From an uncultured Bacteroidales bacterium (GTDB lineage: Bacteria; Bacteroidota; Bacteroidia; Bacteroidales; UBA932): a stretch of DNA of 58,737 nucleotides. Location of the stretch: assembly GCA_947630665.1 (NCBI GenBank), contig CANRID010000011.1:1-58737 (forward strand). The letters run 5' to 3'. Both the position numbers and the translations under genes were made by a program. The notes beneath the pieces are model-generated. The model had not been told where the DNA came from. It made no database searches and saw nothing but the letters and a program-made list of their open reading frames with translations. This document shows, one piece after another, positions 1,672 to 58,433 of the stretch (its first letter is position 1; the number at the start of each line of letters is the position of its first letter).

Positions 1672-1694
1672 CTTTATGGCCAAGGATTATCATT

Positions 1695-33080: not shown

Positions 33081-33154
33081 GGCTAAGTAGTTCAGTGGAT
33101 AGAACACCCTTCTAACTAAAGGGATAGTCCCGGGTTCGAATCCCAGCTTAGAAT
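33081..33154 (+). tRNA. tRNA-like gene with non-canonical anticodon loop
   Basis: The 74 nt fold as a cloverleaf. The D-arm is GTTC-AGTGGATA-GAAC, the anticodon stem CCCTT/AAGGG with loop CTAACTA, and the T-arm has loop TTCGAAT. Features are odd for a working tRNA. The first two acceptor pairs mismatch (GG against AA), one T-stem pair mismatches, the variable loop has six nt, and position 37 is a pyrimidine. Read literally, the anticodon would be AAC, which bacteria do not normally use. The D-arm closely resembles Bacteroidales tRNA-Arg. It has its own promoter and terminator and is placed among defence-type cargo, so it may be a decoy or a specialised RNA. CCA is not encoded. Confidence 0.6.
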
Positions 33155-36200: not shown

Positions 36201-39200
36201 TAGAGTATATTTGATTATAATTGCAATTCTCAAACGAGGATATATACCTATTGATAGTAGCAGAAGGAATAGTTCCATCAAGCAACCTATTTCTCAACAA
36301 AGTTGGTACTTTATCGAATTTACCTCTGAGCTCTTGAAATGTTGAAATCGCATCATTGCATATATTCCAATCTGTATCTATCCCCCTATAATATATTCCA
36401 TATCTTGATGAATACTTTTTATATGTATCCTCATCTAATGCTATATCTTTGAGAATCTTTTGAAGTTCACAAATCTTGACAAGCAAATTATTATACTCAA
36501 TAATGGAGGCATCGTTTTCAGACTTTGCATAAGCATTTATTGCAGTAATGTCATTTGTTAACTTCTCACAGAAAGATGTAATACTGTTATACAAAGACAC
36601 AACATCTTGTACAACCACAGCGATGGTTGCTCTATTTCCGAACTTGCTTGTTAAATAGATATTGATACTCGTCAAGTCGTCTGATAGGTTCAAACTCTTA
36701 TATGAGTTGATTCTTTCAACTAAAGCACTAATATCAACACTTCTATGTATCCAAAAACTTTTAAGTTTGTTTGTAATAAAGTCCTTATACTTAGTTGTCG
36801 CATCAAAAACAACAAATGCTTCAGTTATATTATCCCAGTTTGTGTCCAAACCAGCATAATACTCACCAAAATTCGCTCGGCAATCTTCTGTATTAAGTTT
36901 GCCTACCTTATCCACATATTCTTTGATGCGAGTTAAATATTGCAAAGAGTTATCATACGACAATTTATCTCCGCTACGCATATAGCGTTTTAATTCTGCA
37001 AGATCTCTTTTATATGCAGATGAGAAAAGTCGCTTAAAAGCGGAACTGTAATCACCTCTAAATCTTTGCAACATTGGATATAAATCCACTGTAAAGATTT
37101 CATCATCAAAGATGCTTGTCAAAGAATCTCTTAATGTTTTGATGTCATTGTGTTCTTTGGCAATGGAGTCAAAAGAAGCTTTTATGGTATTATATGAAGC
37201 AGGAATAAACCATTTTTCAGTCGGAGTTATTCCTTTTGAAATTATCTCGGCAAGACAAATTACCTCATCCATTGCCATAAAGGAAGAAGGCACATCGATT
37301 CCTAAAAGAATACATATATTCTCAACTACTGACAGCGTATTTGATATCTTCTCCTCTAATGCCTGTAGTTTTGAAGATAGCTCCTTTAGTTCTGATATTG
37401 CAGTTGTATCACGGAAATCAATCGCATCTTTGGAAAAATGTTTTGCAAAAGGCAAATATTCGGCATTAAACCTCTGTAAGATGCTTTTGCAGTCTTGCTC
37501 AATTATTTCACGATGATATCGTGTTTCTATCTCAGCCCTTATATTTGCTGCTGATTCGTGTATAGTCCGATCCTTTTCAAAGTTACCGGTAATACTCGCA
37601 AACTTCTTATCATCAAACCAACGCTCGGACGGTTGAATATTTGTTTGCAGCAACGATACAATATCGTATAACTCTCGTAAATTATCGTATGATGATGGAG
37701 AGTCGCATCCAAGTTCTTCAGACAAAACTCTCCCTTGCTCAAATATGTCAGACAATTTTTTTAAAGCAACCTTTATGGTCTCTAATCTATCCTTGATTTT
37801 GATTGCAATATCATTTCTACTTTCTGTATTCAAAAGGTTGCAAAAAGTTGCCACGCATTGCTCTATTGTAGAACATATATTTTTGCCATCCAATTCTAAA
37901 ATACCTTCATTGTAGATAGCTAACAATTTGGACTTACTATTAAGAATAGTGTTTGTGTCTTGCTGGTATTTATATGCTTCGTCTCTTAGAGATGAAATAT
38001 TATCGTCATATATCCATCTTATAGGAATTAGTGGAGATTTTGATACTAATGCAAGAAGTTCAACCAGAGTATTTAAACCCGTTTGTGAAGGCCTAATTTT
38101 AATACCTAATGTACCACAGGTTTTCTCAAATATATCAGCCTCCTCCTTAAGAAGTGTCAATAACTGAGATACATTTGAATCTATATCATGTCGCAATTCA
38201 TTAGTAAGCATTCTTACAGATGAGTTCCGCCAAACATTATTTGCATAATCTTCACTTCTTTTGCCTACTGTCTTAGCAAATTCTTGAAGAAGATATATTT
38301 TCTCATTTAATTCAGACTCAGTTACTTTATCCGTTGCCTCTATTGAGAATATAATGTCTGGAACATTCTCCAATTTTGCCAATTTACCATTGACAGAATA
38401 GATGGATATATTAAGACCTGAGGTAAGTGTATGTAACTCATCTTGATACTCGCTGAGTAGATTCCTTTTTCGCTCTAACAAGTCAAGTTGTGCCAAAGCC
38501 TCGTCTCTTACACGAGTACGGTCTATATTGATAGAGTTAGCGAGGTCTCGCAATATCTCCTTTTTCTTCGCCTTATGGCTGTGAAGCGTAAAGCAAAAAT
38601 CCGCTAATCCTACACTTGCTAAACGATTATAAACAACCTGCAAGGCTGCCATCTTCTCAGAAACAAACAAGACCTTTTTACCATCCGCAATAGCTTCGGC
38701 AATAATATTTGTAATGGTCTGACTTTTACCTGTTCCTGGAGGGCCTTGTAATACAAAACTTGCCCCCTTCTTTGAAAGCAAGACAGCATCCTGCTGACTT
38801 GAATCAGCATCTACTACTTGGAAAGTATCAATAGGGCGAATCTGCCTATCGTGATCAAAGTTGTTGAGTTCTTCCGATACTTGAATAGGATCTTGTTCTC
38901 CTACAAGTGCGGCAATTACGGGATTAGCTTTTATCTTTTCTTCATTCCTCTCCAAATCTTTATACATATTAATTTTGAGAAATGACAAATTAGTTAAATG
39001 CGTACTTCTCTCAACTTCCCAACCTTTATTCTCGACTTTGTGTAGCAGTTTCTCTATATACTCAGCTGGAGAATCGTGAGTAGAGTCGAATTCTGGCATA
39101 ATAATTCCAAAATCATTATCCAACTTATGGGATAATGTCGGATTGATAACGATTTCATCATCATGCAGCACTAAACGATACGGAGAAGTTATGGATTCAA

Positions 39201-39639
39201 TAAGAAGTCTTACAGGCACTAAGATTACAGGCGAGGAGAATACTTGTGATGAATCGTCTCGCTCTTTCCATTTAAGCATACCGAAAGTTAGATACAGGGT
39301 ATTTATACCTTGTTCTTCTATTGAGGTATTAGCTTTATATCGAAGTGCTTTTAATGTCTTTTGAAGGTCTCCGATAGGCTTATTGGTTTCAATATCACCT
39401 TTAATGACGGTTTCATAAACTTCTTCACCCTCATCATCTACCTGCACCTTTTTTGCATAAGGGAAAACAATCTCTTTTTCATTGGCAACAACAAGTTCCC
39501 ACAACCTATCAAATGAAGGTGTCATAATCCTTACATTGCTACGCTTGCCCTCAAGAAAGTTTATTAACCTATTTCTCTTTCCAAAGTCGAGCAATAGTTT
39601 CTTCCATATTTCGATACGGTTGTGTAGTTTATGCCCCAT
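33262..39639 (-). CDS. Giant DUF4011-helicase-Vsr-DUF3320 protein (Hhe antiphage type)
   Basis: This 2125-residue protein starts with a DUF4011 region and an SF1 (AAA_11/AAA_12-like) helicase. Walker A GPPGTGKSQTI is near residue 298, Walker B DLVIFDEASQ near residue 1495, and motif VI NVAITRAKHN near residue 1735. A Vsr/DUF559-type nuclease domain follows (residues about 1793-1880, with FRIDMAV, ECDGAAYH and TIYRIWSTDW), then DUF3320 at the C-terminus. This order is that of the single-gene Hhe defence system. Between helicase motifs I and II lie about 1200 residues of mostly helical repeats. The gene is AT-rich and preceded by a structured leader. It looks intact. Confidence 0.88.
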   Translation of the reverse strand: MGHKLHNRIEIWKKLLLDFGKRNRLINFLEGKRSNVRIMTPSFDRLWELVVANEKEIVFPYAKKVQVDDEGEEVYETVIKGDIETNKPIGDLQKTLKALRYKANTSIEEQGINTLYLTFGMLKWKERDDSSQVFSSPVILVPVRLLIESITSPYRLVLHDDEIVINPTLSHKLDNDFGIIMPEFDSTHDSPAEYIEKLLHKVENKGWEVERSTHLTNLSFLKINMYKDLERNEEKIKANPVIAALVGEQDPIQVSEELNNFDHDRQIRPIDTFQVVDADSSQQDAVLLSKKGASFVLQGPPGTGKSQTITNIIAEAIADGKKVLFVSEKMAALQVVYNRLASVGLADFCFTLHSHKAKKKEILRDLANSINIDRTRVRDEALAQLDLLERKRNLLSEYQDELHTLTSGLNISIYSVNGKLAKLENVPDIIFSIEATDKVTESELNEKIYLLQEFAKTVGKRSEDYANNVWRNSSVRMLTNELRHDIDSNVSQLLTLLKEEADIFEKTCGTLGIKIRPSQTGLNTLVELLALVSKSPLIPIRWIYDDNISSLRDEAYKYQQDTNTILNSKSKLLAIYNEGILELDGKNICSTIEQCVATFCNLLNTESRNDIAIKIKDRLETIKVALKKLSDIFEQGRVLSEELGCDSPSSYDNLRELYDIVSLLQTNIQPSERWFDDKKFASITGNFEKDRTIHESAANIRAEIETRYHREIIEQDCKSILQRFNAEYLPFAKHFSKDAIDFRDTTAISELKELSSKLQALEEKISNTLSVVENICILLGIDVPSSFMAMDEVICLAEIISKGITPTEKWFIPASYNTIKASFDSIAKEHNDIKTLRDSLTSIFDDEIFTVDLYPMLQRFRGDYSSAFKRLFSSAYKRDLAELKRYMRSGDKLSYDNSLQYLTRIKEYVDKVGKLNTEDCRANFGEYYAGLDTNWDNITEAFVVFDATTKYKDFITNKLKSFWIHRSVDISALVERINSYKSLNLSDDLTSINIYLTSKFGNRATIAVVVQDVVSLYNSITSFCEKLTNDITAINAYAKSENDASIIEYNNLLVKICELQKILKDIALDEDTYKKYSSRYGIYYRGIDTDWNICNDAISTFQELRGKFDKVPTLLRNRLLDGTIPSATINRYISSFENCNYNQIYSTLNSEFSFEVNCSTSYEYMTQIYKKLRTVFSQFDELYSCVCCMRKQSGDYDTIIEDLKLLIEVQNREKELQSIKSAIVSKYGNYYNELDTNWDNLYSALQFADEFKDFITTYSLPQSFVEPICTDKKIVNYCYERYDELQGLIHILETPYDWFKSLFEQPNTFDDYIFGDLMDRLTNCRNKKHLLEEWVDYCSNREKCQKAGLGAYIAQIDNSSIKDEYIVDAYLKRFYHLWLDAVLPNFPAVQNFRGRIQNQTINEFCELDKGQFKIAQARVRERALSRIPDFNSINGARDEIAILKRELNKQRRLMPLRKLFMAIPNLVTSLRPCFMMSPLSVSVFLEAQSYDFDLVIFDEASQVHTEDAIGAIMRGKQVIIVGDTKQLPPTSFFSTSLNDEDFDVDSDDAIEDNDAGAYESILDEAVSVLPERSLRWHYRSRHEHLIAFSNIKIYNSQLITFPSSTESAPDCGVEYVYVKDGVYDRGGKKNNIIEARKVADLVFEHFKKHPNRSLGVVTFSEAQQNAVDAAIRQKRLQNPRFDKFFIEDKEEPFFIKNLENVQGDERDTIIFSIGYAKDSKGIMYMNFGPLSREGGYRRLNVAITRAKHNVKLVGSIVPTDIDLEKVSSEGVKMLRSYIEFAQQGIVALEKELTFNYDLDFDSPFEEAVYDFLQSKGYNVVTQVGCSGFRIDMAVKHPTQSGKFAIGIECDGAAYHSSRTARERDRLRQAVLEDMGWTIYRIWSTDWIKDQKTEEEKLINAVEKALGRAAIESEDNDVFDSSDSNADAVIPIIEIEEKIEPSEIADRGYGFDLYKRAYPLNIIDENGNIREGYDIAWDIISLEQPIHFEELCRRIAPAYGRQKATSVVRDEVKCIFRNHLKGMIIEDKNEFVRIKDFADVKVRVPNPDDDYLRPINYICNEELALAMKTIAQHSFGITPDDLFIVTARELGFKRTGENIIYSLRKVYQQMLKNGEVTEVDGKVQVI

Positions 39640-40933: not shown

Positions 40934-41872
40934 TTAGAATCTTATTCCTCGATTCTTCTTTCGCTCCTTCTTTCTCTGCTTCTGCCAAGAAGGAACTTGC
41001 TCTTCCTCTACTGGAGCATCCTCTGGAGTGAATAAGCCCAATCCGTTGCTCTCAATAAGGCTATCTGTAACGCTATAATTTTGCTCTGCTTCTTGCCTTG
41101 TCGGTTGCTGTTTAGGCTCAATCTCTGTCTGCTTTTTCGGCATATCCCAACTTAATTGCTTATCAAGTTTTGAATAGCTGAACTGTCTGCTCACATCGGA
41201 AGCCTTGAAAGTGTAGCCATCTTTGATGAAACTCAACCCCTCATTCTTACCCGTTCTGCGGTTAATCTTGAAGGTCATGCCAATTCCTTGTTTTTGTAGT
41301 TTATTGCCCAAGTCCCACCAGGTTCGGCAATGTTTCAAAGCAGCCTTGACAGCATTGTGAATCTCATACTTCACCCGTTCAGGATCGTGGAGTTTCTTTA
41401 CATTGGTTTTGCTCTTGTCCTCTGCGTATGTCAATCCATATTTGTCTTTCAGCTTCTTCGCGGCAATCTCATTTCGCTTAAAATCGTTTTGCGAAGAGAT
41501 TACTTTGCCATCGTAGTTTATGCGATTATAGACCAAATGACAATGCGGATTGTCGGTATTATGATGCCTTACCAAGATGAACTGCGTGTTCTTAATCTGC
41601 ATCAAATCCATATACTCCAATGCGATTTTAGCCATGAACTCATCGGTTAATCGTGGTGCATCTTCGGGCTTAAAGCTTAATGCTATGTGTCCTAACGGTT
41701 GCTTGATTTTCGGATTTAAGAGGCACTGACAGTTGAAACTATCAATCATTTCTTTGTTTGTTCCGAGCAATACACCGTCAGATGCTATGATTTCGGCATT
41801 GTCCTTTCCCATCACATAGCGGATACAACCACCGAAGGATTTTCCTTTCTTGATTTTACCTATCATCTGCAC
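40934..41872 (-). CDS. Relaxase (MobA-type, relaxase/mobilization nuclease domain)
   Basis: This 312-residue relaxase nicks oriT and leads strand transfer. The N-terminus MIGKIKKGKSFGGCIRYVMG is typical of Bacteroides relaxases, so the start at the third residue Met (41866) may be the true one. The histidine triad is in VRHHNTDNPHCHLVYNRI (residues about 101-118). A C-terminal Gln/Glu-rich tail follows. It overlaps the mobC gene by 10 bp, consistent with translational coupling. Confidence 0.9.
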   Translation of the reverse strand: MQMIGKIKKGKSFGGCIRYVMGKDNAEIIASDGVLLGTNKEMIDSFNCQCLLNPKIKQPLGHIALSFKPEDAPRLTDEFMAKIALEYMDLMQIKNTQFILVRHHNTDNPHCHLVYNRINYDGKVISSQNDFKRNEIAAKKLKDKYGLTYAEDKSKTNVKKLHDPERVKYEIHNAVKAALKHCRTWWDLGNKLQKQGIGMTFKINRRTGKNEGLSFIKDGYTFKASDVSRQFSYSKLDKQLSWDMPKKQTEIEPKQQPTRQEAEQNYSVTDSLIESNGLGLFTPEDAPVEEEQVPSWQKQRKKERKKNRGIRF

Positions 41873-42504: not shown

Positions 42505-42951
42505 TTACAGTTTGCGCCACCGCTCGAAGTCTTCCGAATAGATTTCAAGATGCTGCCGGGCGATATTTTCCAGCAGTCCGGACACGCTCATCCTGCGGCT
42601 TCCGAGCTTGCGGACATACTCGTCCAGCCTGTCCCTTACCTCGCAGCTCACGAATACGGGCTTGCGGTCTTCTATTCTGGGAACCTGCAGGAATGTGCTG
42701 CGGTACTCTTCCAGTGACAGCCTGCGTTGCCTACCGCTAATCCGGCACTTGGATGCAGGAGCGGAACCGTCTTTCTCTGCCGGCTCCTGGATCCCGGATT
42801 GTTCCGTGACTGTCGGCAGGATTTCATTCCCGGCATGGTCAGTAACCTCTCCTGCACTTTCAGGGTTTTCACACTCAGGAAGAAGCTGTGACATTTCCAT
42901 ACCTGTCATAGCTTCCCACCGCTCTTTGTCAAAGCTTTTTCTTGTAGCCAT
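42505..42951 (-). CDS. DUF3408-domain protein
   Basis: This 148-residue protein has a low-complexity N-terminal half and the DUF3408 domain in its C-terminal part (residues about 85-148, with FVSCEVRDRLDEYVRKLG and LLENIARQHLEIY). The domain looks like a ribbon-helix-helix fold. DUF3408 genes accompany mobilization and transfer genes in Bacteroidota conjugative and mobilizable elements, so a relaxosome or regulatory role is likely. The start MATRKSFDKERWEAM is typical for the family. Confidence 0.8.
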   Translation of the reverse strand: MATRKSFDKERWEAMTGMEMSQLLPECENPESAGEVTDHAGNEILPTVTEQSGIQEPAEKDGSAPASKCRISGRQRRLSLEEYRSTFLQVPRIEDRKPVFVSCEVRDRLDEYVRKLGSRRMSVSGLLENIARQHLEIYSEDFERWRKL

Positions 42952-45769: not shown

Positions 45770-46132
45770 ATGGAAGTAGTGGTCATAGACAAGGCGACTT
45801 TCGAGAGGATGCTCTCGGGATTTGAGATTTTTGCGGAAAAAGTTGAACGGCTCTGCCGGGAACAGGAGGACTTGGGAGAAAAGGAGTGGCTTGACAGCGA
45901 TGACGTGTGCAGGCTGCTCTGCATCAGTCCGAGAACCTTGCAGACGATGCGGGAGAACGGAACGCTGGCTTATACCAAAATAAGCCACAAGGTATATTAC
46001 AGACCGGAGGATGTGAAGTCCATCTTTCCCGTGACGGAAATGAAACGGTGTATAACAGCCGGCAAGGAAAGAAAATGCAATGTAAGCAACAAGCCAACTA
46101 ACAAACTAACCAACCAACAAACAGATATCTGA
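45770..46132 (+). CDS. HTH_17/excisionase-like DNA-binding protein (module copy 2, gene A)
   Basis: This 120-residue paralogue of the 43544 product has the coiled N-terminus FERMLSGFEIFAEKVERLCR, then the HTH SDDVCRLLCISPRTLQTM and RENGTLAYTKISHKVYYRPE. The C-terminal tail is extended and Asn/Thr/Lys-rich, derived from a short AACCAAC/AACTAAC-like repeat (46085-46125). It is followed after 3 bp by gene B of the module. Confidence 0.82.
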   Translation: MEVVVIDKATFERMLSGFEIFAEKVERLCREQEDLGEKEWLDSDDVCRLLCISPRTLQTMRENGTLAYTKISHKVYYRPEDVKSIFPVTEMKRCITAGKERKCNVSNKPTNKLTNQQTDI

Positions 46133-46135
46133 TTT

Positions 46136-46468
46136 ATGAATGACAATGGCAATATCCGGCTGCTGACACCGGAAAACGACATACGCGTGAGAGCTTTCCT
46201 CTCGTCGCTGGAAGAACTATCGGAAAAGGTGGAGAAAATACGTGAAAACAACAAGCCGTCCCTGGACGGGGAACGTTATTACACTGACAAGGAACTGGCC
46301 GTTAAACTGAAGGTCAGCCGCAGGAGCCTTCAGGATTACCGAAACAACGGCATACTGCCCTATATTCAGATAGGCGGCAGGATCCTGTACAGGGCTTCCG
46401 ACATTGAACGTACGTTAATGGACGGGTACAAGGAGGCGTACTGTCAGAATGGTAGAACCAGGTTGTAA
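46136..46468 (+). CDS. HTH_17/excisionase-like DNA-binding protein (module copy 2, gene B)
   Basis: This 110-residue paralogue of the 43886 product has YYTDKELAVKLKVSRRSLQD and then YRNNGILPYIQIGGRILYRA with MDGYKEAY near the end. The four HTH genes form two A-B pairs about 1.9 kb apart on the same strand, with the sigma-like and hypothetical genes between them on the opposite strand. Confidence 0.84.
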   Translation: MNDNGNIRLLTPENDIRVRAFLSSLEELSEKVEKIRENNKPSLDGERYYTDKELAVKLKVSRRSLQDYRNNGILPYIQIGGRILYRASDIERTLMDGYKEAYCQNGRTRL

Positions 46469-46585
46469 TATTACCCCGTATTATGGGTATCCGCCAAGTT
46501 CAACTTTTCATTTCTGAATCCGCATCACAGGTTCACTAAATGATGCGGATTGGTTTTGTAATGCAATACAGATACACCCTTTATT

Positions 46586-46622
46586 GGGTATATCGTAATA
46601 ATATACCATTTTTAGGGTATAT
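46586..46622 (+). promoter_or_regulatory. Operator-like repeats before the SatD operon
   Basis: GGGTATAT occurs at 46586-46593 and 46615-46622, and the inverted form ATATACC at 46601-46607, so 46587-46607 is an inverted repeat (GGTATAT-N7-ATATACC) followed by a third half-site. The last half-site ends 10 bp before the start codon. It is a likely operator, perhaps for the HTH of the first gene itself. Confidence 0.55.
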
Positions 46623-46631
46623 TTCTTGGCT

Positions 46632-47339
46632 ATGCCAAATTATATTCATACTTTTACAGCCAAAACAATAGATAGTAATATGTTTGCAACCATTTCGGCA
46701 GATATAGTTTCATCCACTTCGTTATCCGTGGATGAAACTATCAGACTAAAGCAAAGGATAGAGGCACTGTTTGCTTTGCTCAAAACAAAATACCCGGATT
46801 TTTGCGGTCGTCAAATCAAAGGCGATTATATCGAATGTGTAATGCAGAATGTATCCAATGTCTTTCGTATAGCTCTTGTAATCAAATCATGCATCAAGTC
46901 TTTCCCGATTACAGAAAACAGGAAAGCGAAGAGCTTTCAGACATATGGTATCAGGATGGCTATCGGTATTGGAAACATGCGTATAGTGGACACGGAACAG
47001 GGCATTTGGGATGGCGAGTCCATTTATATGTCGGGGCGTTCACTTGAGGGAATGAATGCCTTGAATAAAGGAACTTTGTCTGTATGTACAAGCAAAAGAC
47101 AATTATCCTGCCCCTTACAGACGATCGCATTGCTGACCGATGCCATCATGAATGACATGACCCTGCGCCAAAGCGAGGTCATTTATTACAAACTGCTTGG
47201 ATTGAAGGAAACGGATATAGCCCGAAATCTGGGAATATCACAATCCGGTGTAAACAAGGCTTCATCGGCTACAAAATGGTATTGCATAGAGGAAGCCTTG
47301 AAGTATTTTGAACAGATAAATTTTAACGAATATGAATAG
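46632..47339 (+). CDS. SatD-family protein: class III cyclase-like domain plus HTH
   Basis: This 235-residue protein reads as two parts. Residues about 14-150 carry the motifs of a class III nucleotide cyclase homology domain in order: TISADIVSSTSL (first metal Asp), then IKGDYIECVM (second Asp), then IRMAIGIGNMRI and WDGESIYMSGRSLEGM. Residues about 175-225 form a LuxR/sigma-4-like HTH (KETDIARNLGISQSGVNKAS). SatD-family proteins are known next to DUF3307 genes, but cyclase activity has not been shown to my knowledge. The ATG at 46632 is chosen over a TTG at 46626. Its 3' end overlaps the DUF3307 gene by 8 bp. Confidence 0.75.
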   Translation: MPNYIHTFTAKTIDSNMFATISADIVSSTSLSVDETIRLKQRIEALFALLKTKYPDFCGRQIKGDYIECVMQNVSNVFRIALVIKSCIKSFPITENRKAKSFQTYGIRMAIGIGNMRIVDTEQGIWDGESIYMSGRSLEGMNALNKGTLSVCTSKRQLSCPLQTIALLTDAIMNDMTLRQSEVIYYKLLGLKETDIARNLGISQSGVNKASSATKWYCIEEALKYFEQINFNEYE

Positions 47340-48021
47340 CTGGCTGTTTTTAAGTTTGCTGTTGGGCCACGTCATAGCCGATTTCTACCTGCAAAATGAC
47401 AAATACTGCTCACAGAAAGAGGAAAAGAAATTCAGAAGCTGCTTCCTGTATGTACATTCGCTTCTTGTAGCTGTAGTATCATGGGCTTTGGTTCCGGTCA
47501 GCGATTTCGGGTTTTATGCCTTGACCATTGCTCTGTCACATCTGGCCATTGACCTTGTCAAAGCCTATTGTCCCAAAGGATTGTGGAGTTTTGTCCTTGA
47601 CCAGGCTGCACATCTGGCAATATTGGCTGCTGTGGCTACCGAGTTTGATATCACCACTGAATTGCCTGTACAATTTGTGGATTATACCGGGAACTTCTCC
47701 ATGCCTTTATTCATACTGGCGGTACTGTTGTGCATCAAACCTGCCAATGTCCTGATCAAGCTGGTTTTGAAAAGGTACCAAATCGGAGAAACACTATCCT
47801 GTGAGAATATCAAAAATGCCGGAGCATTGATAGGAAACCTGGAACGTATTCTCACAATCATATTTGTAATAATAGGCAGGTATGAAGCAATCGGTTTTAT
47901 CATAGCCGCAAAATCCATATTGAGGTTCAAGGATACGGATACAGCAAAAACCGAATATGTCCTTGCCGGAACATTTCTAAGTTTCGGAATCGCTTTGCTT
48001 TGTGGACTGATGGCAGCATAA
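47332..48021 (+). CDS. DUF3307 membrane protein
   Basis: This 229-residue protein has about six hydrophobic helices. The N-terminal DUF3307 signature LLGHVIADFYLQND is followed by HSLLVAVVSWAL and a His/Asp-rich pattern (LSHLAIDLVK, LDQAAHLAILA) that could bind metal within the membrane. It is translationally coupled to the SatD-like gene (8-bp overlap) and followed after 4 bp by the primase-helicase gene. DUF3307 has no assigned activity. In this context it could be the membrane effector or sensor partner of the cyclase-like protein. Confidence 0.78.
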   Translation: MNSWLFLSLLLGHVIADFYLQNDKYCSQKEEKKFRSCFLYVHSLLVAVVSWALVPVSDFGFYALTIALSHLAIDLVKAYCPKGLWSFVLDQAAHLAILAAVATEFDITTELPVQFVDYTGNFSMPLFILAVLLCIKPANVLIKLVLKRYQIGETLSCENIKNAGALIGNLERILTIIFVIIGRYEAIGFIIAAKSILRFKDTDTAKTEYVLAGTFLSFGIALLCGLMAA

Positions 48022-48025
48022 CGGG

Positions 48026-50926
48026 ATGGAAGAGCTGCAAAAGAAATACGACACGCTTGTCAGGAAATATAATGCATTACTTGCCGAGAACGAAGAGTTG
48101 AAATCAATTCTTCTTCAACACGGCATTGCGTATTCTGCATCGGAAATCTCTGATAAGGAGCCGATTTTTTCTCCTGTAATATTTCCTTCTGTCAATTTCA
48201 CGCCTGATGAGAAAATAGCATTGTTCAGCAGCTTTTTCAAGGGAAGAACGGATGTTTTTGCACGAAGATGGTTCAGCAGGACAACGGGAAAGGGAGGCTA
48301 TCAACCGGTCTGTACCAATGAATGGCGAAGAGGAGTCTGCGACAAGAAACGATACAAGTGCCCGGCTTGCCCGAATCGCAACCTTGCTCCTCTGACAAGC
48401 CGGGAAATCTACCGCCATCTGGAGGGAAAAGATGAAGACGGGTGTGATGTTATAGGTTTATATGCTGTCACCCCTGACAATAAATGCTCTTTTCTTTGCG
48501 CTGATTTTGATGACAAGAATTGCACTCGCGGATATAAGGAAGATGTACTGGCTTTCATTGCCGTTTGTAGGAATTGGGGAATTCCGTACAGTATCGAACG
48601 TTCACGCTCCGGTAACGGGGCGCATGTGTGGATATTTTTCGAAGAGCCGGTTGCTGCCGGTAAAGTCAGGAAATTAGGCAATGCCGTCCTTACTGAGGCC
48701 ATGAAGCGCAACGGACATATTACCTTCAATTCATACGACCGTTTCTTCCCCAATCAGGACAGGATGCCTGAAGGCGGATTCGGAAATCTGATAGCCCTTC
48801 CATTGCAAGGCAGGGCACGGAAAATGGGAAACAGTGTCTTTGTGGATGAAAACTTCCTTCAATTCAAAAACCAATGGGCTTATTTATACAATGCAAAAAA
48901 ACTTAATGAGCATGCCTTGGACATGTTATTGGCCCGGCACAGACAGGAAGACTTCGGTTCGTTGGCAACTTCTTCAGAAACAAAGCCTTGGGTGCTTCCT
49001 GTCTCTCAGGATGTCACGCAGAAAGATTTTAACGGAAAACTGAAAGTTAAAAAATCGGACAGACTATACATCCCCCTAAACTCCATATCCGAAAAAGTGG
49101 CCAATCATCTCAAGCGTATAGCCGCATTCAAAAATCCGGAATTTTACAGCAAACAAGCGATGCGCATCTCTACCTATAACATTCCGCGTATTATTTGCCG
49201 TGCTGACTTTACGGATGATTACCTCGCCCTGCCCCGCGGTTGTGAGGATGCCGTAACAACCATGCTGGAATCTCTTGGAGTTGCTTATGAAATGATTGAT
49301 GAAACCAATCACGGCAAGCCTGTTGCCGTTGCATTCAAGGGCAAGGAACGTGACGAGCAACTTGATGCCATCAATTCCTTAATGCCATACACGAACGGGG
49401 TATTGGCGGCAACGACCGCTTTTGGGAAAACAGTAACAGCAGCTGCTCTGATTGCCCGAAAAAAGGTAAGCACACTCGTGCTGGTACATTCCAAAGCGCT
49501 GCTCCTGCAATGGCACGAACGCCTTACCGACTTTCTTGAGATAGAATTTGCCGAGCCTGCCACGTCAAGAAAACGTGGCAGGAAAAAAGTGTTTTCTCCC
49601 ATAGGCTGCTTGGATTCAACCTCAAACACCTTGCACGGAGTCATTGACATCGCCCTTATGCAATCATGTTTTGAAAATGGCGAGGTAAGACCTTTTGTAC
49701 GGGAATATGGAATGGTGATCGTGGATGAATGCCATCATGTTTCTTCCATAACGTTTGAGAATGTACTCAGACATATTACGGCACATCATGTCTATGGACT
49801 TACTGCCACACCTATCCGCAAGGACGGACTGCAACCCATTATCTTCATGCAGTGCGGACCAATCCGCTTTTTGGCAGATGCCAAGACCCAGATACAGAAG
49901 CAGTCATTCCTGCGTTATCTTGTTCCAAGATTCACATCCTATCGCTCTGTAACTGACAACAGGCAGTCGTTCGCCTTATTGTCACAATCGCTTGCTGAAT
50001 CCGAGTTACGGAATACGCTCATCATAGAGGATGTGTTAAATGCAGTAACGGCAGGAAGGACACCGATTATCCTGACCGGCAGGACATCGCATGTAAAGCT
50101 GCTTTCCGGAATGTTAAAACCGCATATCGCCAACGTCATTCAACTGACGGGAGAAGGAACAGCCAAAAGCAAGCGTGAAGTCCTGCAAGGATTGCATGAC
50201 ATTCCGCAAAATTCCCCTCTTGTAATAGTCGCTACCGGAAAATATGTAGGAGAAGGATTTGACTATCCCCGGCTTGATACGCTCTTTTTAGCCCTCCCCA
50301 TATCATGGAAAGGGTTGGTTGCCCAGTATGCAGGCCGTCTGCACCGGGAGAACGAAGGAAAAGCCGATGTCCGTATCTATGATTATATCGATATACACGA
50401 ACCTGTCTGTGAGAGCATGTATCGCAAGAGGCTCAAAGGCTATTCCGCCATCGGCTATCGGGTACTTTCCAAGGATTGTCAGACATTGTTTGATGCAACC
50501 GAAGGTTTACAGTCGTCTCCGCATGAAGAACAGATATTCAACGGCATAACATTCTGTCAGCCGTTTATAAAAGAATTAAAAGCCTCAAGACAATCCATTG
50601 TGATATCTTCCCCTAAGCTCTATCATATGGAACGAAATAAATTTGTCAATATCTTGAAAGAACTCCAAAGAGATGGTATTGAAGTGGCCATTCTTACATT
50701 GACAGAAAACGGGCAGTCGGATTATCTCAGAAGACAGGGGCTGTTCGTAAAGATTGTACCTGGATTATCATTATGTTCATGTGTTATGGACAAATCCTCC
50801 GTCTGGTATGGCAGTATCAATATCCTTGGCTATCCGACGGAAGAAGACAATATTATAAGAATTAAAGATATAAGACTTGCGGAAGAATTTTTGGATGTCA
50901 TTTACAATAATGGCAATGGCAAGTAA
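48026..50926 (+). CDS. TOTE-type archaeo-eukaryotic primase, SF2 helicase and PLD-like fusion
   Basis: This 966-residue protein begins with a coiled coil (residues 1-40). An AEP-type domain follows (residues about 60-290), with a Cys cluster (VCTNEW...VCDKKRYKCPACPNR), the acidic FLCADFDD and SGNGAHVWIFF. An SF2 helicase comes next: AATTAFGKTVTAAALIA near residue 465, VIVDECHHVSS near residue 565, TATPIRKDG, and motif VI QYAGRLHRE near residue 770. The C-terminus (residues about 840-966) resembles a PLD-like domain with VWYGSINILGYPTEEDNIIR, but the His and Lys of HKD are not evident. The AEP module is the one named in TOTE conflict systems. It is the third gene of the SatD operon. Confidence 0.83.
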   Translation: MEELQKKYDTLVRKYNALLAENEELKSILLQHGIAYSASEISDKEPIFSPVIFPSVNFTPDEKIALFSSFFKGRTDVFARRWFSRTTGKGGYQPVCTNEWRRGVCDKKRYKCPACPNRNLAPLTSREIYRHLEGKDEDGCDVIGLYAVTPDNKCSFLCADFDDKNCTRGYKEDVLAFIAVCRNWGIPYSIERSRSGNGAHVWIFFEEPVAAGKVRKLGNAVLTEAMKRNGHITFNSYDRFFPNQDRMPEGGFGNLIALPLQGRARKMGNSVFVDENFLQFKNQWAYLYNAKKLNEHALDMLLARHRQEDFGSLATSSETKPWVLPVSQDVTQKDFNGKLKVKKSDRLYIPLNSISEKVANHLKRIAAFKNPEFYSKQAMRISTYNIPRIICRADFTDDYLALPRGCEDAVTTMLESLGVAYEMIDETNHGKPVAVAFKGKERDEQLDAINSLMPYTNGVLAATTAFGKTVTAAALIARKKVSTLVLVHSKALLLQWHERLTDFLEIEFAEPATSRKRGRKKVFSPIGCLDSTSNTLHGVIDIALMQSCFENGEVRPFVREYGMVIVDECHHVSSITFENVLRHITAHHVYGLTATPIRKDGLQPIIFMQCGPIRFLADAKTQIQKQSFLRYLVPRFTSYRSVTDNRQSFALLSQSLAESELRNTLIIEDVLNAVTAGRTPIILTGRTSHVKLLSGMLKPHIANVIQLTGEGTAKSKREVLQGLHDIPQNSPLVIVATGKYVGEGFDYPRLDTLFLALPISWKGLVAQYAGRLHRENEGKADVRIYDYIDIHEPVCESMYRKRLKGYSAIGYRVLSKDCQTLFDATEGLQSSPHEEQIFNGITFCQPFIKELKASRQSIVISSPKLYHMERNKFVNILKELQRDGIEVAILTLTENGQSDYLRRQGLFVKIVPGLSLCSCVMDKSSVWYGSINILGYPTEEDNIIRIKDIRLAEEFLDVIYNNGNGK

Positions 50927-51443: not shown

Positions 51444-52664
51444 TCATTGGCTGTCAGAGCCGGAATGTGTGCGGCTCCGGCTTCTCTTTTCCATCAGTCT
51501 GTCCATTTCCCTTGAGATTTTTTCTTCCGTTATCCTGGCATACCCTTGTGTGGTAGAAATATTGGAGTGTCCCATCATCTTGGCTATGCTCTCGATGGAT
51601 ACGCTCTCTGAAATGAGCAGGACCCCGAACCCGTGCCGGGCCTGATGGTACGAAAGGTCATCGTGCCTGCCCAGGATCACGCCGATTTCCCGTATCTCGT
51701 GCCAGATGGAATCCCGGCTTGGCAACGGGAATACGGGACTGTGTGTGTCGGTGGTATTGTATAGGGACAGTATCTGCTCGGCTATCGGGTGCAGGGGGAT
51801 GAACGCTTCCACCCCGGTCTTCTTCCGGTTGATGCGGATGAACCGCCGACCCTCCGCCGTCGTCCCGATATGGCACGGATGGAGCTGCTTGATGTCGGCA
51901 TAGGCAAGCCCGGTGAAATAGGAGAAGATGAATGCACGCCTGCCCAGTTCCGCACGTCCTTCATTCAGGGGCATGGCCAGTATCCTTTTCATCTCTTCAC
52001 GGGTGACATACTTGTGCTTGGGTGCGGTTTTCTTCTCATATTCGACATTCTCCACCGGATTGGTGCGCAGGATCTCGTTGTCCACGGCAAGATACAAGAG
52101 GCGGTTCAGCCAGCAGAGGCTGCGGTTGGTCTGCGAGGTGCTGAAATTCTTGTTCCTGATAAGGAATGCCTTGTAGTTCCTGCCGAAGTCTTCCGTTATT
52201 TCTTCAAAGGCGATGTCCTTCTTCCCCAGTGAAACAAGGTAGTCCGTCAGGTACTTCTGGAAATACTGTGATTGCCGGTAGGTGGAGGTGGAATTGATCT
52301 CCCTGCTACGTATTCTGAGACGTTCACGCTCTATCTCGCCCATCCGGAGCAGGTGTGTCGGAACGACGAACTGCCTTGTCACCCGGTTCTTGATAATCTC
52401 CGCACTGACGACACCCTGTGTCCTCAGAATTTCCTCGTAAGTCTGTTCGATATACTTCCGGTATTCCTGCAGTCTGGCGTTTTCCCTTACCGTGCGTATG
52501 GTTCCGGCGTTCCAGTCTTCCGGCTTGCAGCATATCCCGGTGGTGATGGCGGTGTTCCTGCCGTCTATGGTGATGCGGCACATGACCGCAGTTGTTCCGT
52601 CAGCCTTTATCTTGCCGCGGTTGATGTAGAATAGTATGGAAAAGGTACTTCTCATGATTCTCAT
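51444..52664 (-). CDS. Tyrosine recombinase (integrase) 2
   Basis: This 406-residue site-specific recombinase has an N-terminal arm-binding domain (FSILFYINRGKIKADGTTAV), a SAM-like core-binding domain (residues about 105-200) and a catalytic domain. The catalytic residues are R in RRAFIFSYFTGLAYAD, HxxR in YHQARHGFG, H in MMGHSNISTTQ and the nucleophile Tyr in GYARI. It is the downstream member of a tandem integrase pair on the minus strand, 10 bp after integrase 1. Similar tandem pairs occur at the ends of Bacteroidota mobilizable elements. Confidence 0.93.
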   Translation of the reverse strand: MRIMRSTFSILFYINRGKIKADGTTAVMCRITIDGRNTAITTGICCKPEDWNAGTIRTVRENARLQEYRKYIEQTYEEILRTQGVVSAEIIKNRVTRQFVVPTHLLRMGEIERERLRIRSREINSTSTYRQSQYFQKYLTDYLVSLGKKDIAFEEITEDFGRNYKAFLIRNKNFSTSQTNRSLCWLNRLLYLAVDNEILRTNPVENVEYEKKTAPKHKYVTREEMKRILAMPLNEGRAELGRRAFIFSYFTGLAYADIKQLHPCHIGTTAEGRRFIRINRKKTGVEAFIPLHPIAEQILSLYNTTDTHSPVFPLPSRDSIWHEIREIGVILGRHDDLSYHQARHGFGVLLISESVSIESIAKMMGHSNISTTQGYARITEEKISREMDRLMEKRSRSRTHSGSDSQ

Positions 52665-52674
52665 TGTTTATGGG

Positions 52675-53904
52675 TTATAGAACAAGTTTCAAATCTCCGG
52701 TGGCCTCGATGAGTTTGTCCATGTCCTCGAAGAGCTTTTTCGGGGTGACGCGGGCATAGACCTGGGTCGTCTGTATGTTGCTATGCCCCAGCATGCTGCT
52801 GATGGTCTCTATCGGAACGCCCGCTTCAAGGGTGACGAGCGAGGCGAACGAGTGGCGTCCGACATGGTAGCACAGGTCCTCCTTTATCCCTGCCAGCACG
52901 GCCAGCGCCTTCATGTGGTTTCTCATGCTCGGATAGTGTATCATCGGGAACAGCGTATCCCTGCTGTCATCATGATATTTCTCTATCAGGGCGACGGCTT
53001 CCGGCAGCAGCTTCACGCTTGCACGGAGCTCGTTCTTTTTACGTCGGTATTTCAGCCATAGCTTGCCATCCTCGCCGGTGTACAGGTTTTCCCGGGTGAC
53101 GGTCACGGCATCGCTGTAGGCAACCCCGGTATAGCAGGCGAAGAGGAACAGGTCCCTTGCCAGACGGTGGGTCGTGCGGTGCGGGGCTATCTCCACGTCA
53201 CGGATTTTCTCGAAACTTTCACGGCTCAGTGCCTTGGGGGTCTTGACGGTCTGTTTCGGGAGAACATAGTGCTGGAACATAAACCGCTCGGAGTGTCCTT
53301 CCTGATAAGCCCTTTTGCACGTTTTCTTGAGAATTGCCAGGTAATGCCGTACGGTGTCCACGGCATACCCTTTCTCGTCAAGGATGAAATTCTCATAGTC
53401 GTGGATGAACTGTTCCGTAAGCTGCCCGAAGGCCAGGTCTTTCGTCTTGAATTTGGTTTCAATGAACTCGCGCATGGTACGGCAGGTAAAGTCGTATGCC
53501 GGATAGGTCCCTTTTGCCCGGTCTATCCCGATACGGCTCTTCACCTCATCCCTGAGCGCATCCAGCATTTTCATCAGGGTCATCTGCGTCTTCATGCTGC
53601 CCTGAAAGGCATCCTTGACGGAAGCGGCGTCAAATTCCCCCTTGCGTTCCAAAAGGGAATTGAAAGCGGCATTGATGTCAAGCAGCAGCTTGTCGATTTT
53701 CGCATTTGTCTCCACCGCCTCCCTGCTCTTGCCATTCAGACGGCTTTCACGGGGATTCCACAGCCCGGGAGTGCAGGATAGCTTGCAGCTGAACTGCGCC
53801 ATCGTCCGGTTCACGGTGATGCGTCCCATTATCGGGGCTTTGCCCGACTTGTCCAGTCCGCTCTTTTTGAGGTAGAGCAAAACCTTGAATTTTTCTACTT
53901 TCAT
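52675..53904 (-). CDS. Tyrosine recombinase (integrase) 1
   Basis: This 409-residue recombinase has the same build as its neighbour. The arm domain is KFKVLLYLKKSGLDKSGKAP, followed by the core-binding domain and catalytic domain with ARDLFLFACYTGVAYSD, the HxxR motif YHVGRHSFAS, LGHSNIQTTQ and VYARV. It is nearest the right end of the element and starts directly at an inverted repeat that brackets its promoter. It most likely recombines the att sites of the inner element together with integrase 2. Confidence 0.94.
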   Translation of the reverse strand: MKVEKFKVLLYLKKSGLDKSGKAPIMGRITVNRTMAQFSCKLSCTPGLWNPRESRLNGKSREAVETNAKIDKLLLDINAAFNSLLERKGEFDAASVKDAFQGSMKTQMTLMKMLDALRDEVKSRIGIDRAKGTYPAYDFTCRTMREFIETKFKTKDLAFGQLTEQFIHDYENFILDEKGYAVDTVRHYLAILKKTCKRAYQEGHSERFMFQHYVLPKQTVKTPKALSRESFEKIRDVEIAPHRTTHRLARDLFLFACYTGVAYSDAVTVTRENLYTGEDGKLWLKYRRKKNELRASVKLLPEAVALIEKYHDDSRDTLFPMIHYPSMRNHMKALAVLAGIKEDLCYHVGRHSFASLVTLEAGVPIETISSMLGHSNIQTTQVYARVTPKKLFEDMDKLIEATGDLKLVL

Positions 53905-56477: not shown

Positions 56478-58433
56478 ATGGAAATTAGTGAACTAAAAGA
56501 CCATATCCGTTATTTCTCGGATCCAGTCTTATTCTACGACCGGATTTATAAAAAGGTGGCTAGTTTTAATTTTGAATACTTAAATCGTCAAATAAGTAAT
56601 GAGAAAAAAGAATTATTTGAATTTGATGTCAGTTCTTTTTCTATTGCAGAAGATATCGAACTTGAATCGTTTTACAAGCAGACGAATGACCTCTTCGTAT
56701 ATTTAAAAAGCAAACATGATGAACTATCTCATAATAGAAATAAAGGATGGGCACATTCTCACAAGATCGATAGACAAGCAACCGATATAGAGTACATCAG
56801 CAAACGATTATGTATTATAACAGCCAATGCAGGTCAAGGAAAAACGAACTTCTTATGCGATTTTGCAAACAATGTGCTCGTCAGGCGCAACATCCCCACT
56901 CTATATATAAATGGATATGAAATTGATGCTTCCTCTATTGAACAGTCGTTGGCTCATACAGTATATCCAGTAAATACTTATTCGTTTGCAGAAATAATAA
57001 ATGGCATAAAGAGTTATTGTATAAACTCAAAGAAACCTTTTATTCTTATTATTGATGGATTAAATGAAAATAATTCACCGCAGTTGCTGTCCACCAATCT
57101 GTGTAATCTTATTCGGGAATTAATCAACCATAAGTTTATTAAGATTATATTAACTTGTAGAACGGAATATTACGCAGAGCGATTTGCCGATATAGATAAG
57201 CTTTTCCCCGAACAAACGATCAGGATCGATCATATCCATGCCCATTTAAATGAAGCACAAAAAGAACGTTTACTTAATAATTATTTAAGCTATTTTAAGA
57301 TTCAAGCAGATTTGTCGAAAGAAATTCAAACGGAATTAACAAATAATCTGTTACTATTAAGAATCTTTTCAGAGACATACAGTGGCCAAGCCTTATCTTT
57401 CGTTGAGGACTTACACAAAGACGAACTCTTTGAAACATATTATCAGAAACTATGTAATGATATTTCTCACAAATTATCAGCAGATGGCTATTCGTCCGTA
57501 AATGCCTGCTTTATACAAAGGTTTATAGGCCAAATCATTACCTATATGGTAGATCACAAGCAATTTTCCAATATTCCCATTTTAGGTGGACTGGAGCAAA
57601 CACAAATAGATTTGTATTGCAGATTCCTTGATGAGAATATATTACTTCGACGAGATTTGGTTATGTCTTCAGGGGTCTTTGGAAAAATAGAAGTTGTCAA
57701 CTTTACATATGATGAATTTAGAGATTACTTGATAAGTTGCTATTTAATCGATACTATTTATCCAAAATCACCTGGCTGCTTCGAATCTTTTGTTGCGAAA
57801 TATACCCAAAGCAGTCAACAGTTGGCAGAAGGGCTGCGGTCTTTCTTGTTTTTATTATCAAAGAAACATTCAGATAAAAAAATACATACTTGGTTAAAAA
57901 ATCTGGATTGGTACAAAACCGCATTTATTAACCATATTTGGGATATTGATGACAAGTATATCAATGATGATGATATAGCGTTGATAGAAGAATTATTACC
58001 AAAGCATAATAAATGTCTTATTCCGAGATTGTTATTTATTGGTCGTTGGGCCACGACCCGTTTCCCGAAATTGAATATTCAGATCATATTAAAATATTCA
58101 GCATCTTTATCAGACTCCGATTTACACGAAAAAGTATATTCGATTTGGCGATCTGAGACTGATTATTGGTACAAAGCAGATGACAAAACATGGATAGATT
58201 TTCTATCATTGTATAAAAAGCTGTTATCGGACCATACATTTTTTCAAAATCCCGAGTCTCACAATATTTTCGAATTTTTATTATATCTGACGCCGTTCTC
58301 CTATGATGCGTTAGAGATTTATGAAGCATACCAGAAAACATACGGCAACAAGGAGCGGTTGCTTAAAGTAAAGGATGTTTGCCATAGCGGTAGATTGAAA
58401 CAGACAATTGGTAACCTACTGAATAAATTATGA
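56478..58433 (+). CDS. NACHT-domain STAND NTPase
   Basis: This 651-residue protein has an N-terminal helical region (residues 1-110), then a NACHT module: Walker A ITANAGQGKTNFLCDF (residues about 115-130), Walker B PFILIIDGLNEN (residues about 190-201) and ILTCRTEYYAERF (sensor 1). A helical winged-helix-like region and an alpha-helical C-terminus follow (residues about 400-651). Bacterial NACHT proteins are antiphage sensors or effectors. No known effector domain is recognised, so the N-terminus or the neighbouring small proteins may serve. It is AT-rich. Its stop overlaps the next start (ATGA). Confidence 0.85.
   Translation: MEISELKDHIRYFSDPVLFYDRIYKKVASFNFEYLNRQISNEKKELFEFDVSSFSIAEDIELESFYKQTNDLFVYLKSKHDELSHNRNKGWAHSHKIDRQATDIEYISKRLCIITANAGQGKTNFLCDFANNVLVRRNIPTLYINGYEIDASSIEQSLAHTVYPVNTYSFAEIINGIKSYCINSKKPFILIIDGLNENNSPQLLSTNLCNLIRELINHKFIKIILTCRTEYYAERFADIDKLFPEQTIRIDHIHAHLNEAQKERLLNNYLSYFKIQADLSKEIQTELTNNLLLLRIFSETYSGQALSFVEDLHKDELFETYYQKLCNDISHKLSADGYSSVNACFIQRFIGQIITYMVDHKQFSNIPILGGLEQTQIDLYCRFLDENILLRRDLVMSSGVFGKIEVVNFTYDEFRDYLISCYLIDTIYPKSPGCFESFVAKYTQSSQQLAEGLRSFLFLLSKKHSDKKIHTWLKNLDWYKTAFINHIWDIDDKYINDDDIALIEELLPKHNKCLIPRLLFIGRWATTRFPKLNIQIILKYSASLSDSDLHEKVYSIWRSETDYWYKADDKTWIDFLSLYKKLLSDHTFFQNPESHNIFEFLLYLTPFSYDALEIYEAYQKTYGNKERLLKVKDVCHSGRLKQTIGNLLNKL

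Follow-up and report, generated by a model that had tools for sequence, protein, structure and literature searches.

SatD-like and DUF3307 genes form a conserved two-gene unit, a possible mobile conflict module of bacteria and haloarchaea

The 58,737-nt contig CANRID010000011.1 of an uncultured Bacteroidales bacterium (hereafter the window, to the whole of which coordinates refer) carries three co-directional genes that encode a SatD-like protein, a DUF3307 membrane protein and a protein in which an AEP primase is fused to an SF2 helicase (AEP-helicase). An earlier note on this DNA had described the genes as overlapping or abutting, and a check of the open reading frames (ORFs) confirmed an 8-bp overlap between the first and second genes and a 4-bp gap between the second and third (Table 1). 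The note had also proposed a three-part system with the helicase as sensor, an idea that did not hold. We found instead that SatD and DUF3307 make up a conserved unit of two genes, beside which the AEP-helicase is separate, probably a mobile-element or defence gene in its own right. The pair may constitute an autonomous, mobile conflict module, similar to toxin–antitoxin (TA) or abortive infection (Abi) systems, in which SatD would repress the operon and restrain DUF3307, a reading to which we give slightly less than an even chance.

A coupled and widespread gene pair

Among the 295 genomes of the window's order that were surveyed, DUF3307 was found in 47 and a SatD-like gene in 45. A SatD-like match lay within 1 kb of 42 of the 48 DUF3307 matches. 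One of the six unpaired matches (G216) gained a SatD with a hidden Markov model (HMM), three (L105–L107) were short proteins without SatD, and two others were not fetched. Conversely, 11 of the 53 SatD-like matches, several of them partial, had no DUF3307 match within 1 kb. Pair loci were tallied with the exclusion of L040 (its SatD truncated at the end of the contig), of L103 and L104 (divergent SatD, DUF3307 absent or partial) and of L071 and L181, which are near-copies. In all 53 tallied loci SatD came first and on the same strand. Both genes were intact in 44 of them, four were cut by contig ends, and in the remaining five (L033, G196, G059, G114 and G050) DUF3307 was broken and SatD intact, while the reverse was seen in none of the 53 (sign test on 5:0, p=0.0625). 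The nearest in-frame DUF3307 start was at most 30 bp from the SatD stop in 41 of the 44 intact pairs, and, when that start is taken, 21 of the 44 have a 4- or 8-bp overlap. The DUF3307 membrane protein that the earlier note had placed second in the operon (PF11750, E=1.8e-24) is a tightly coupled partner of SatD. No third gene recurring across most pair loci was found among the neighbours tallied.

Outside the Bacteroidota, the adjacent pair was found in Vibrio lentus, two Pseudoalteromonas records, Salinivibrio, Fusobacterium vincentii, Enterobacter, haloarchaea and Sphingomonas. Partners from eight records matched an HMM of the Bacteroidales SatD proteins at E-values of 3.3e-47 to 3.7e-14 in an eight-sequence search, and the Fusobacterium partner gave 1.7e-9. 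DUF3307 of Pseudomonas fragi has a candidate SatD-like partner, judged by size and position. Plasmid records carry the pair in Vibrio, Pseudoalteromonas, Sphingomonas, Enterobacter and haloarchaea, as does a Segatella plasmid. On the E. coli plasmid pEC34A (3,770 bp; L189) the pair occupies positions 1590-3279, that is, 45% of the plasmid, and the remaining annotated genes encode Rop, MobA and one small hypothetical protein. The pEC34A DUF3307 gene recurs at ≥99% identity in five Klebsiella records, and an 83% copy lies on one 4,424-bp Klebsiella plasmid. This plasmid, the only one of the six Klebsiella records that was examined, has a SatD-like gene in front of DUF3307. No match to the pEC34A pair was found in 5,426 complete E. 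coli genomes. Since the SatD proteins of L031, L032, L034 and L035 are 88-96% alike in loci whose neighbours differ, and since pairs occur on plasmids including pEC34A, the pair appears to move horizontally, through bacteria and haloarchaea alike.

We considered whether the pair or the helicase might be phage genes and rejected this, because 50,697 phage records contained no match to SatD (E≤1e-5), AEP (E≤1e-30) or the Sphingomonas DUF3307 (E≤1e-3). Two scans of viral contigs for SatD returned a single 60-kb contig, on which the pair accompanies a 98% copy of the helicase.

As a side observation, a gene that reads by eye as an ABC-F ATPase (one cluster) directly precedes the pair in L125, L127 and L128. 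An annotated ABC-F gene precedes the pair in Salinivibrio too.

The two proteins and the region upstream

The longest ORF of the SatD-like gene begins with TTG at 46626, and an alternative start is the ATG at 46680 (MFATISADIV), where homology begins. The TTG coincides with a TTGG box, and 46626 is more likely to mark a promoter element than a start codon. The TTGG at 46626 and the downstream box TACTTTTA resemble the -33 and -7 boxes of a Bacteroidetes promoter. Upstream of SatD, all 11 regions compared have a TAnnTTT(G/A) box in roughly this position, and the TTG box is missing in one of them (L034).

The GGGTATAT repeats that had been called operators proved real: they are half-sites of dyads whose positions recur in relatives with different letters. 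In seven of the 11 upstream sequences, the window included, dyads with their centres 37.5, 52 and 66.5 nt before the -7 box have 5 to 7 of 7 complementary pairs, and in three of the other four they are shifted by 1 nt, with 7 of 7 pairs at 38.5 nt. The half-site letters vary by group (GGTATAT/ATATACC, TTATAGA/TCTATAA or TTATAAG/CTTATAA) and the geometry stays constant. The dyad score, averaged over the axes, reached 4.91 of 7; none of 300 single-base shuffles, which preserve neither relatedness nor dinucleotides, exceeded 3.91. Dyads that keep position and symmetry while their letters change would fit autoregulation by SatD, which would then bind this DNA.

The window SatD-like protein itself gave no match to the Pfam family of the Streptococcus sat operon protein SatD (PF16264), either at E≤0.1 or at E≤1. 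Ten of 29 aligned Bacteroidales relatives, however, matched it at E≤1 (best 4.4e-14), and so did the DUF3307-adjacent partners of Haloplanus (8.5e-32) and Natronosalvus (1.9e-14). By transitivity, the window protein would thus be a distant branch of the SatD family. The four motifs that the earlier note had assigned to a class III nucleotide cyclase domain were found, in the correct order, and the fusion to a helix-turn-helix (HTH) was confirmed. When searched against the PDB, a profile of 26 SatD-like proteins related the N-terminal domain to the class III cyclase 3mr7 (E=5.5e-5), to Ma1120 cyclases (0.014–0.027) and to the diguanylate cyclase DosC (0.038), and the C-terminus to LuxR/sigma-type HTHs. 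An earlier 29-protein profile had matched 3mr7 at 3.6e-4. The relation to solved cyclases is thus found at the profile level; a single SatD sequence searched against the PDB revealed no cyclase, and hhalign of SatD against one Pycsar cyclase found nothing.

From Bacteroidales to haloarchaea, the only invariant columns of the 26 SatD-like proteins are D8, G48 and D49 (window numbering), with an insertion between the G and the D in the Natronosalvus row. D8 and D49, the two aspartates whose inspection had been suggested, correspond to the metal-binding aspartates of class III cyclases and G48 is the Gly of the GD motif. Class III cyclases stabilize the transition state with the Asn and Arg of an N-x-x-x-R motif; in the SatD-like proteins the Asn is absent from all 26, and the Arg is present in 19 and replaced in seven. 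The metal and nucleotide site of SatD thus seems to be kept, and ordinary cyclization is doubtful. An AlphaFold2 model of SatD from a 9-sequence alignment had low confidence (mean pLDDT 41) and was not used.

In DUF3307, residues H13, D17, H42, H70, Q91, H94, E171, R172, K194, S195, R198 and E208 are kept in all of 28 Bacteroidales proteins, and D74, K77 and D90 in 27 of them. Hydropathy gave four to seven hydrophobic segments in the DUF3307 proteins examined (four in the window's), and the latter had no Pfam match besides DUF3307. Such residues point to a metal enzyme of the membrane more than to a simple pore. The protein may have some resemblance to membrane hydrolases of the DUF457/YdjM type. 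The structure prediction was of low confidence here too (pLDDT 43.8) and was not used.

The AEP-helicase as a separate gene

The third gene is a clear member of the TOTE-type AEP primase-helicases, and the earlier description of a TOTE-type AEP–SF2–PLD fusion was borne out for the AEP (PF22548, E=4.6e-95) and SF2 (4.7e-20) parts; 12 aligned proteins share invariant primase (catalytic Asp/His) and SF2 motifs. The PLD part is weak: the PLDc_2 match (0.012) is below the family cut-off, and the HKD motif is degenerate. By eye, in the PLD-like domain (residues about 845-960) the HKD His is absent from all 12 proteins and the Lys from 11 (L077 keeps it), and ID...WYG is largely kept. The domain is probably a non-catalytic copy, and this degenerate C-terminus sets the Bacteroidales branch apart from other members of the family. 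Plasmid relatives (40 listed of 107) align to helicase residues 811-837 at most.

Homologues of the AEP-helicase occur in 29 of the 295 genomes of the order, mostly as relatives of 30–35% identity, with five loci at 47–100% over the full length. Only five of these 29 genomes carry the pair, which is no more than expected by chance (Fisher p=0.40). In the family of the Paraprevotella clara genome (G300), the AEP-helicase is present in 33 of 349 genomes, and the pair lies upstream of it in two of 30 loci (G300 and G571), where the stretch inspected reached at most 1.5 kb upstream or stopped sooner with the contig. The weaker AEP matches had no locus. Most tallied pairs likewise have no helicase. 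The three-part sensor–signal–effector system was therefore rejected.

That system, in which the helicase would sense foreign nucleic acid, SatD would signal and DUF3307 would execute, has some observations in its favour. The three genes form one apparent operon in the window, in the near-copies of its element (L071 and L181, the latter from G571), in L035 and in L036 (the G300 copy). The trio persists at 74–76% helicase identity to the window's protein, a divergence roughly parallel to that of the pair, and in two kinds of place: it is not confined to the window's element, since in L035 it adjoins dnaK and no recombinase was recognised among the ORFs of that 12.7 kb. On the other side, a 74%-identical helicase (L163) stands without the pair, and the trio label needs three changes in the tree of pairs, which implies more than one gain or loss of the helicase; shuffled labels were clustered as tightly in 172 of 500 cases. 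Together with the scarcity of the pair at helicase loci and the chance-level co-occurrence in genomes, this makes a three-component system very unlikely.

What precedes the AEP-helicase varies. A same-strand gene ends at most 100 bp before the aligned AEP start in 20 of 27 loci, a tally for which 20 places were refetched with longer flanks. SatD–DUF3307 is this front in four loci; the other fronts that were scanned encode AAA_14–DUF4143, ATPase_2–DUF234, AbiEii, Abi_2, AlbA_2 with HATPase_c_4, DUF2971 and HTH_3 proteins and one protein without a match. The unscanned fronts of L172, L173 and L074 cluster with that of L171, and that of L178 was also unscanned. PADLOC identified four of the scanned fronts as AbiEii (5e-115), AbiD (9.7e-70), PDC-S01 (1.2e-112; the AAA_14–DUF4143 type) and a match to a pAgo model (2.7e-33). 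SatD–DUF3307 thus stands where other loci have defence-type genes. The AEP-helicase-PLD gene may often lie behind genes of this kind, and in one lineage the pair would take their place.

An exchangeable-front family is thus possible, and it could be extended to a modular defence family: the AEP-helicase would control whichever toxin gene stands before it, and SatD–DUF3307 would be one of several interchangeable fronts. The several unrelated families found among the 20 fronts fit this reading. However, L167 and L168 have no such front gene, four AAA_14 loci are near copies, as are two of the trio loci, and three fronts are cut by contig ends. Moreover, defence genes cluster anyway, and the 20 of 27 counts AEP loci alone. 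We consider a modular family of this kind unlikely.

The window trio was correctly placed by the earlier note as cargo of a mobilizable element, since a relaxase (PF03432), a DUF3408 protein and two tyrosine recombinases lie nearby (Table 1). Two further window genes were noted. A 2125-aa protein (33262-39639, - strand), close to tRNA-Val (33081-33154), matches PADLOC PDC-S37 (1517 bits) and Hhe and is a large helicase-type defence candidate. A 651-aa STAND NTPase (56478-58433, + strand) contains an Avs2-like stretch (PADLOC Avs2, 7.3e-24; NCBIfam Avs2, 4.7e-15, with 54.6 bits against a cut-off of 1000) and is much shorter than Avs2.

Table 1. Features of the window locus and of genes in front of the AEP-helicase in other loci
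Feature	Coordinates	Strand	Basis
SatD-like protein, class III cyclase-like domain (Asp8, Asp49) and C-terminal HTH	46680..47339	+	ORF, alignment, profile search
DUF3307 membrane protein, conserved His/Asp/Gln/Glu/Arg	47332..48021	+	PF11750 E=1.8e-24, conservation, hydropathy
AEP primase–SF2 helicase–degenerate PLD-like protein, 966 residues, separable third gene	48026..50926	+	PF22548 4.6e-95, ResIII 4.7e-20
Operator-like array, alternating half-sites (GGGTATAT repeats)	46587-46593, 46601-46607, 46616-46622; weak 46572-46578	.	sequence
Promoter-like elements: TTGG; -7-like box TACTTTTA	46626-46629; 46649-46656	+	TAnnTTT(G/A) conservation
Two HTH_17 genes of the mobilizable element	45770..46132, 46136..46468	+	Pfam scan
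MobA/VirD2-like relaxase of the element	40934..41872	-	PF03432 6.1e-33
DUF3408 protein	42505..42951	-	PF11888 3.5e-25
Two tyrosine recombinases of the element	51444..52664, 52675..53904	-	PF00589
AbiEii, directly before AEP-helicase-PLD	L077 8886-9836		
Abi_2/AbiD, directly before AEP-helicase-PLD	L179 5188-6234		
AAA_14-DUF4143, directly before AEP-helicase-PLD	L171 8852-10219		
AlbA_2, directly before AEP-helicase-PLD	L169 5848-7308		

Surroundings and possible function of the pair

Part of the pair loci have conflict-type surroundings. Type I restriction-modification (R-M) genes stand beside the pair in six of 44 genomes (G217, G221, G093, G095, G257 and G196), and it is flanked by HsdS and HsdR in G217 and by HsdS and HsdM in G221. 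The expectation, set generously from 197 N6-methylase matches, is 0.89 (P=3e-4), a post hoc value because this class of genes was singled out once the loci had been inspected. The scan covered 20 neighbour proteins selected by eye, and G130 was not tabulated. In G050 a RhuM and a ResIII protein are near the pair, and on a Sphingomonas insulae plasmid (L191, 1751-6202) a convergent PycTM–E2–PycC Pycsar set comes after the pair. The link to conflict systems raised by the earlier note is thus supported for the pair in part of its loci.

An alternative is a housekeeping or stress role, in which the pair would serve the membrane or the response to acid stress. SatD would then sense a metabolite and regulate a membrane enzyme, and the pair would have spread by ordinary gene transfer. 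Most of the Bacteroidales copies examined do lie among housekeeping-type genes, by eye, and a study of S. pyogenes states that the sat genes are tied to acid stress tolerance in S. mutans (PMC11323703). The patchy occurrence of DUF3307 in the order, the carriage of the pair on mobile elements and tiny plasmids, and its position between type I R-M genes speak against such a role, which we regard as improbable.

The pair shares traits with two kinds of known system. Like Pycsar (PycC + PycTM), it is a mobile unit of two genes, one for a cyclase-like protein and one for its membrane partner. It differs in that neither PycC nor PycTM is matched in PADLOC, SatD lacks the active-site Asn of cyclases and is fused to an HTH, DUF3307 has conserved His/Asp/Glu/Arg residues, and operator-like dyads are found at the pair. 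With AbiE and other TA/Abi operons it has in common an HTH regulator in first position, an overlapping second gene, possible self-repression and mobile carriage, and it takes the same place before the AEP-helicase as AbiEii does in L077. Here the differences are that SatD and DUF3307 have no PADLOC AbiE match and that the protein which would act as toxin is enzyme-like and resides in the membrane.

If the pair worked in the Pycsar manner, SatD would be an active cyclase or nucleotidyl enzyme, and a nucleotide made upon infection would switch DUF3307 on and damage the membrane. The class III cyclase profile match, the two metal aspartates, the membrane partner and the one pair beside a Pycsar set agree with this. 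The absent Asn and the seven replaced Arg residues do not, nor do the enzyme-like residues of DUF3307, which has no other Pfam match. In S. pyogenes, moreover, satD was scored essential, which is unexpected of an activator (PMC11323703). A Pycsar-like mode of action has, in our view, only a small probability.

The same source describes satD, present in 178 of 249 genomes, as the only accessory gene whose essentiality score ranks in the top quarter (PMC11323703). This is the main point that would favour restraint over activation by SatD, since the loss of an activator should be harmless and the loss of a restraint should not. Restraint is also favoured by the breaks among the 53 loci, all of which affect DUF3307 with SatD intact. 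As a conflict module, the pair could therefore be pictured as follows. SatD, a cyclase-fold domain with an HTH, would bind a divalent metal and probably a nucleotide; it would occupy the dyads ahead of its own promoter as a repressor of the operon, and would also restrain the co-translated DUF3307 protein. The latter would be an effector embedded in the membrane and resembling a metalloenzyme; loss of SatD, or a change in the nucleotide state of SatD, would let it damage the membrane or the membrane lipids. In the most specific form of this model, SatD would be both the antitoxin and the nucleotide-sensing switch of a membrane metalloenzyme toxin, in bacteria and haloarchaea, with the Pycsar parts reversed and a cyclase fold restraining the effector, which we consider conceivable though rather doubtful.

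Several points weigh against a conflict module. The 5:0 asymmetry of breaks reaches only p=0.0625, and some of the breaks may be assembly errors. The dyads could also serve an activator. Outside the Bacteroidales, the DUF3307 residue set is incomplete in two of eight proteins, in part in Salinivibrio (His/Asp) and through loss of the N-terminal half in Natronosalvus. A DUF3307 neighbour of S. pyogenes satD could not be confirmed, and the essentiality of satD could also reflect a non-toxic physiological role. Non-polar satD mutants of S. mutans are reportedly viable. Housekeeping-type genes, as mentioned, adjoin most of the Bacteroidales pairs. Finally, PADLOC gave no match for the window SatD and DUF3307, none for seven of eight proteins from four other pairs (and no Pyc or AbiE match among the eight), and weak matches confined to the HTH for the pEC34A SatD-like protein.

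No published description of the SatD–DUF3307 pair was found in a search that left most subscription papers outside, and literature searches on TOTE systems and on DUF4143 as an anti-phage domain led nowhere. Among the papers searched, DUF3307 is mentioned in one, and SatD as a family, domain or gene likewise in one (PMC10326533). Two families of unknown function, SatD and DUF3307, prove to belong to a single gene unit that is shared by bacteria and archaea, and both are directly testable. The pair may be an undescribed self-protection switch, which could explain how satD can be accessory and yet essential in a streptococcus, and it may add restraint by a cyclase fold to the mechanisms of prokaryotic immunity or addiction systems.

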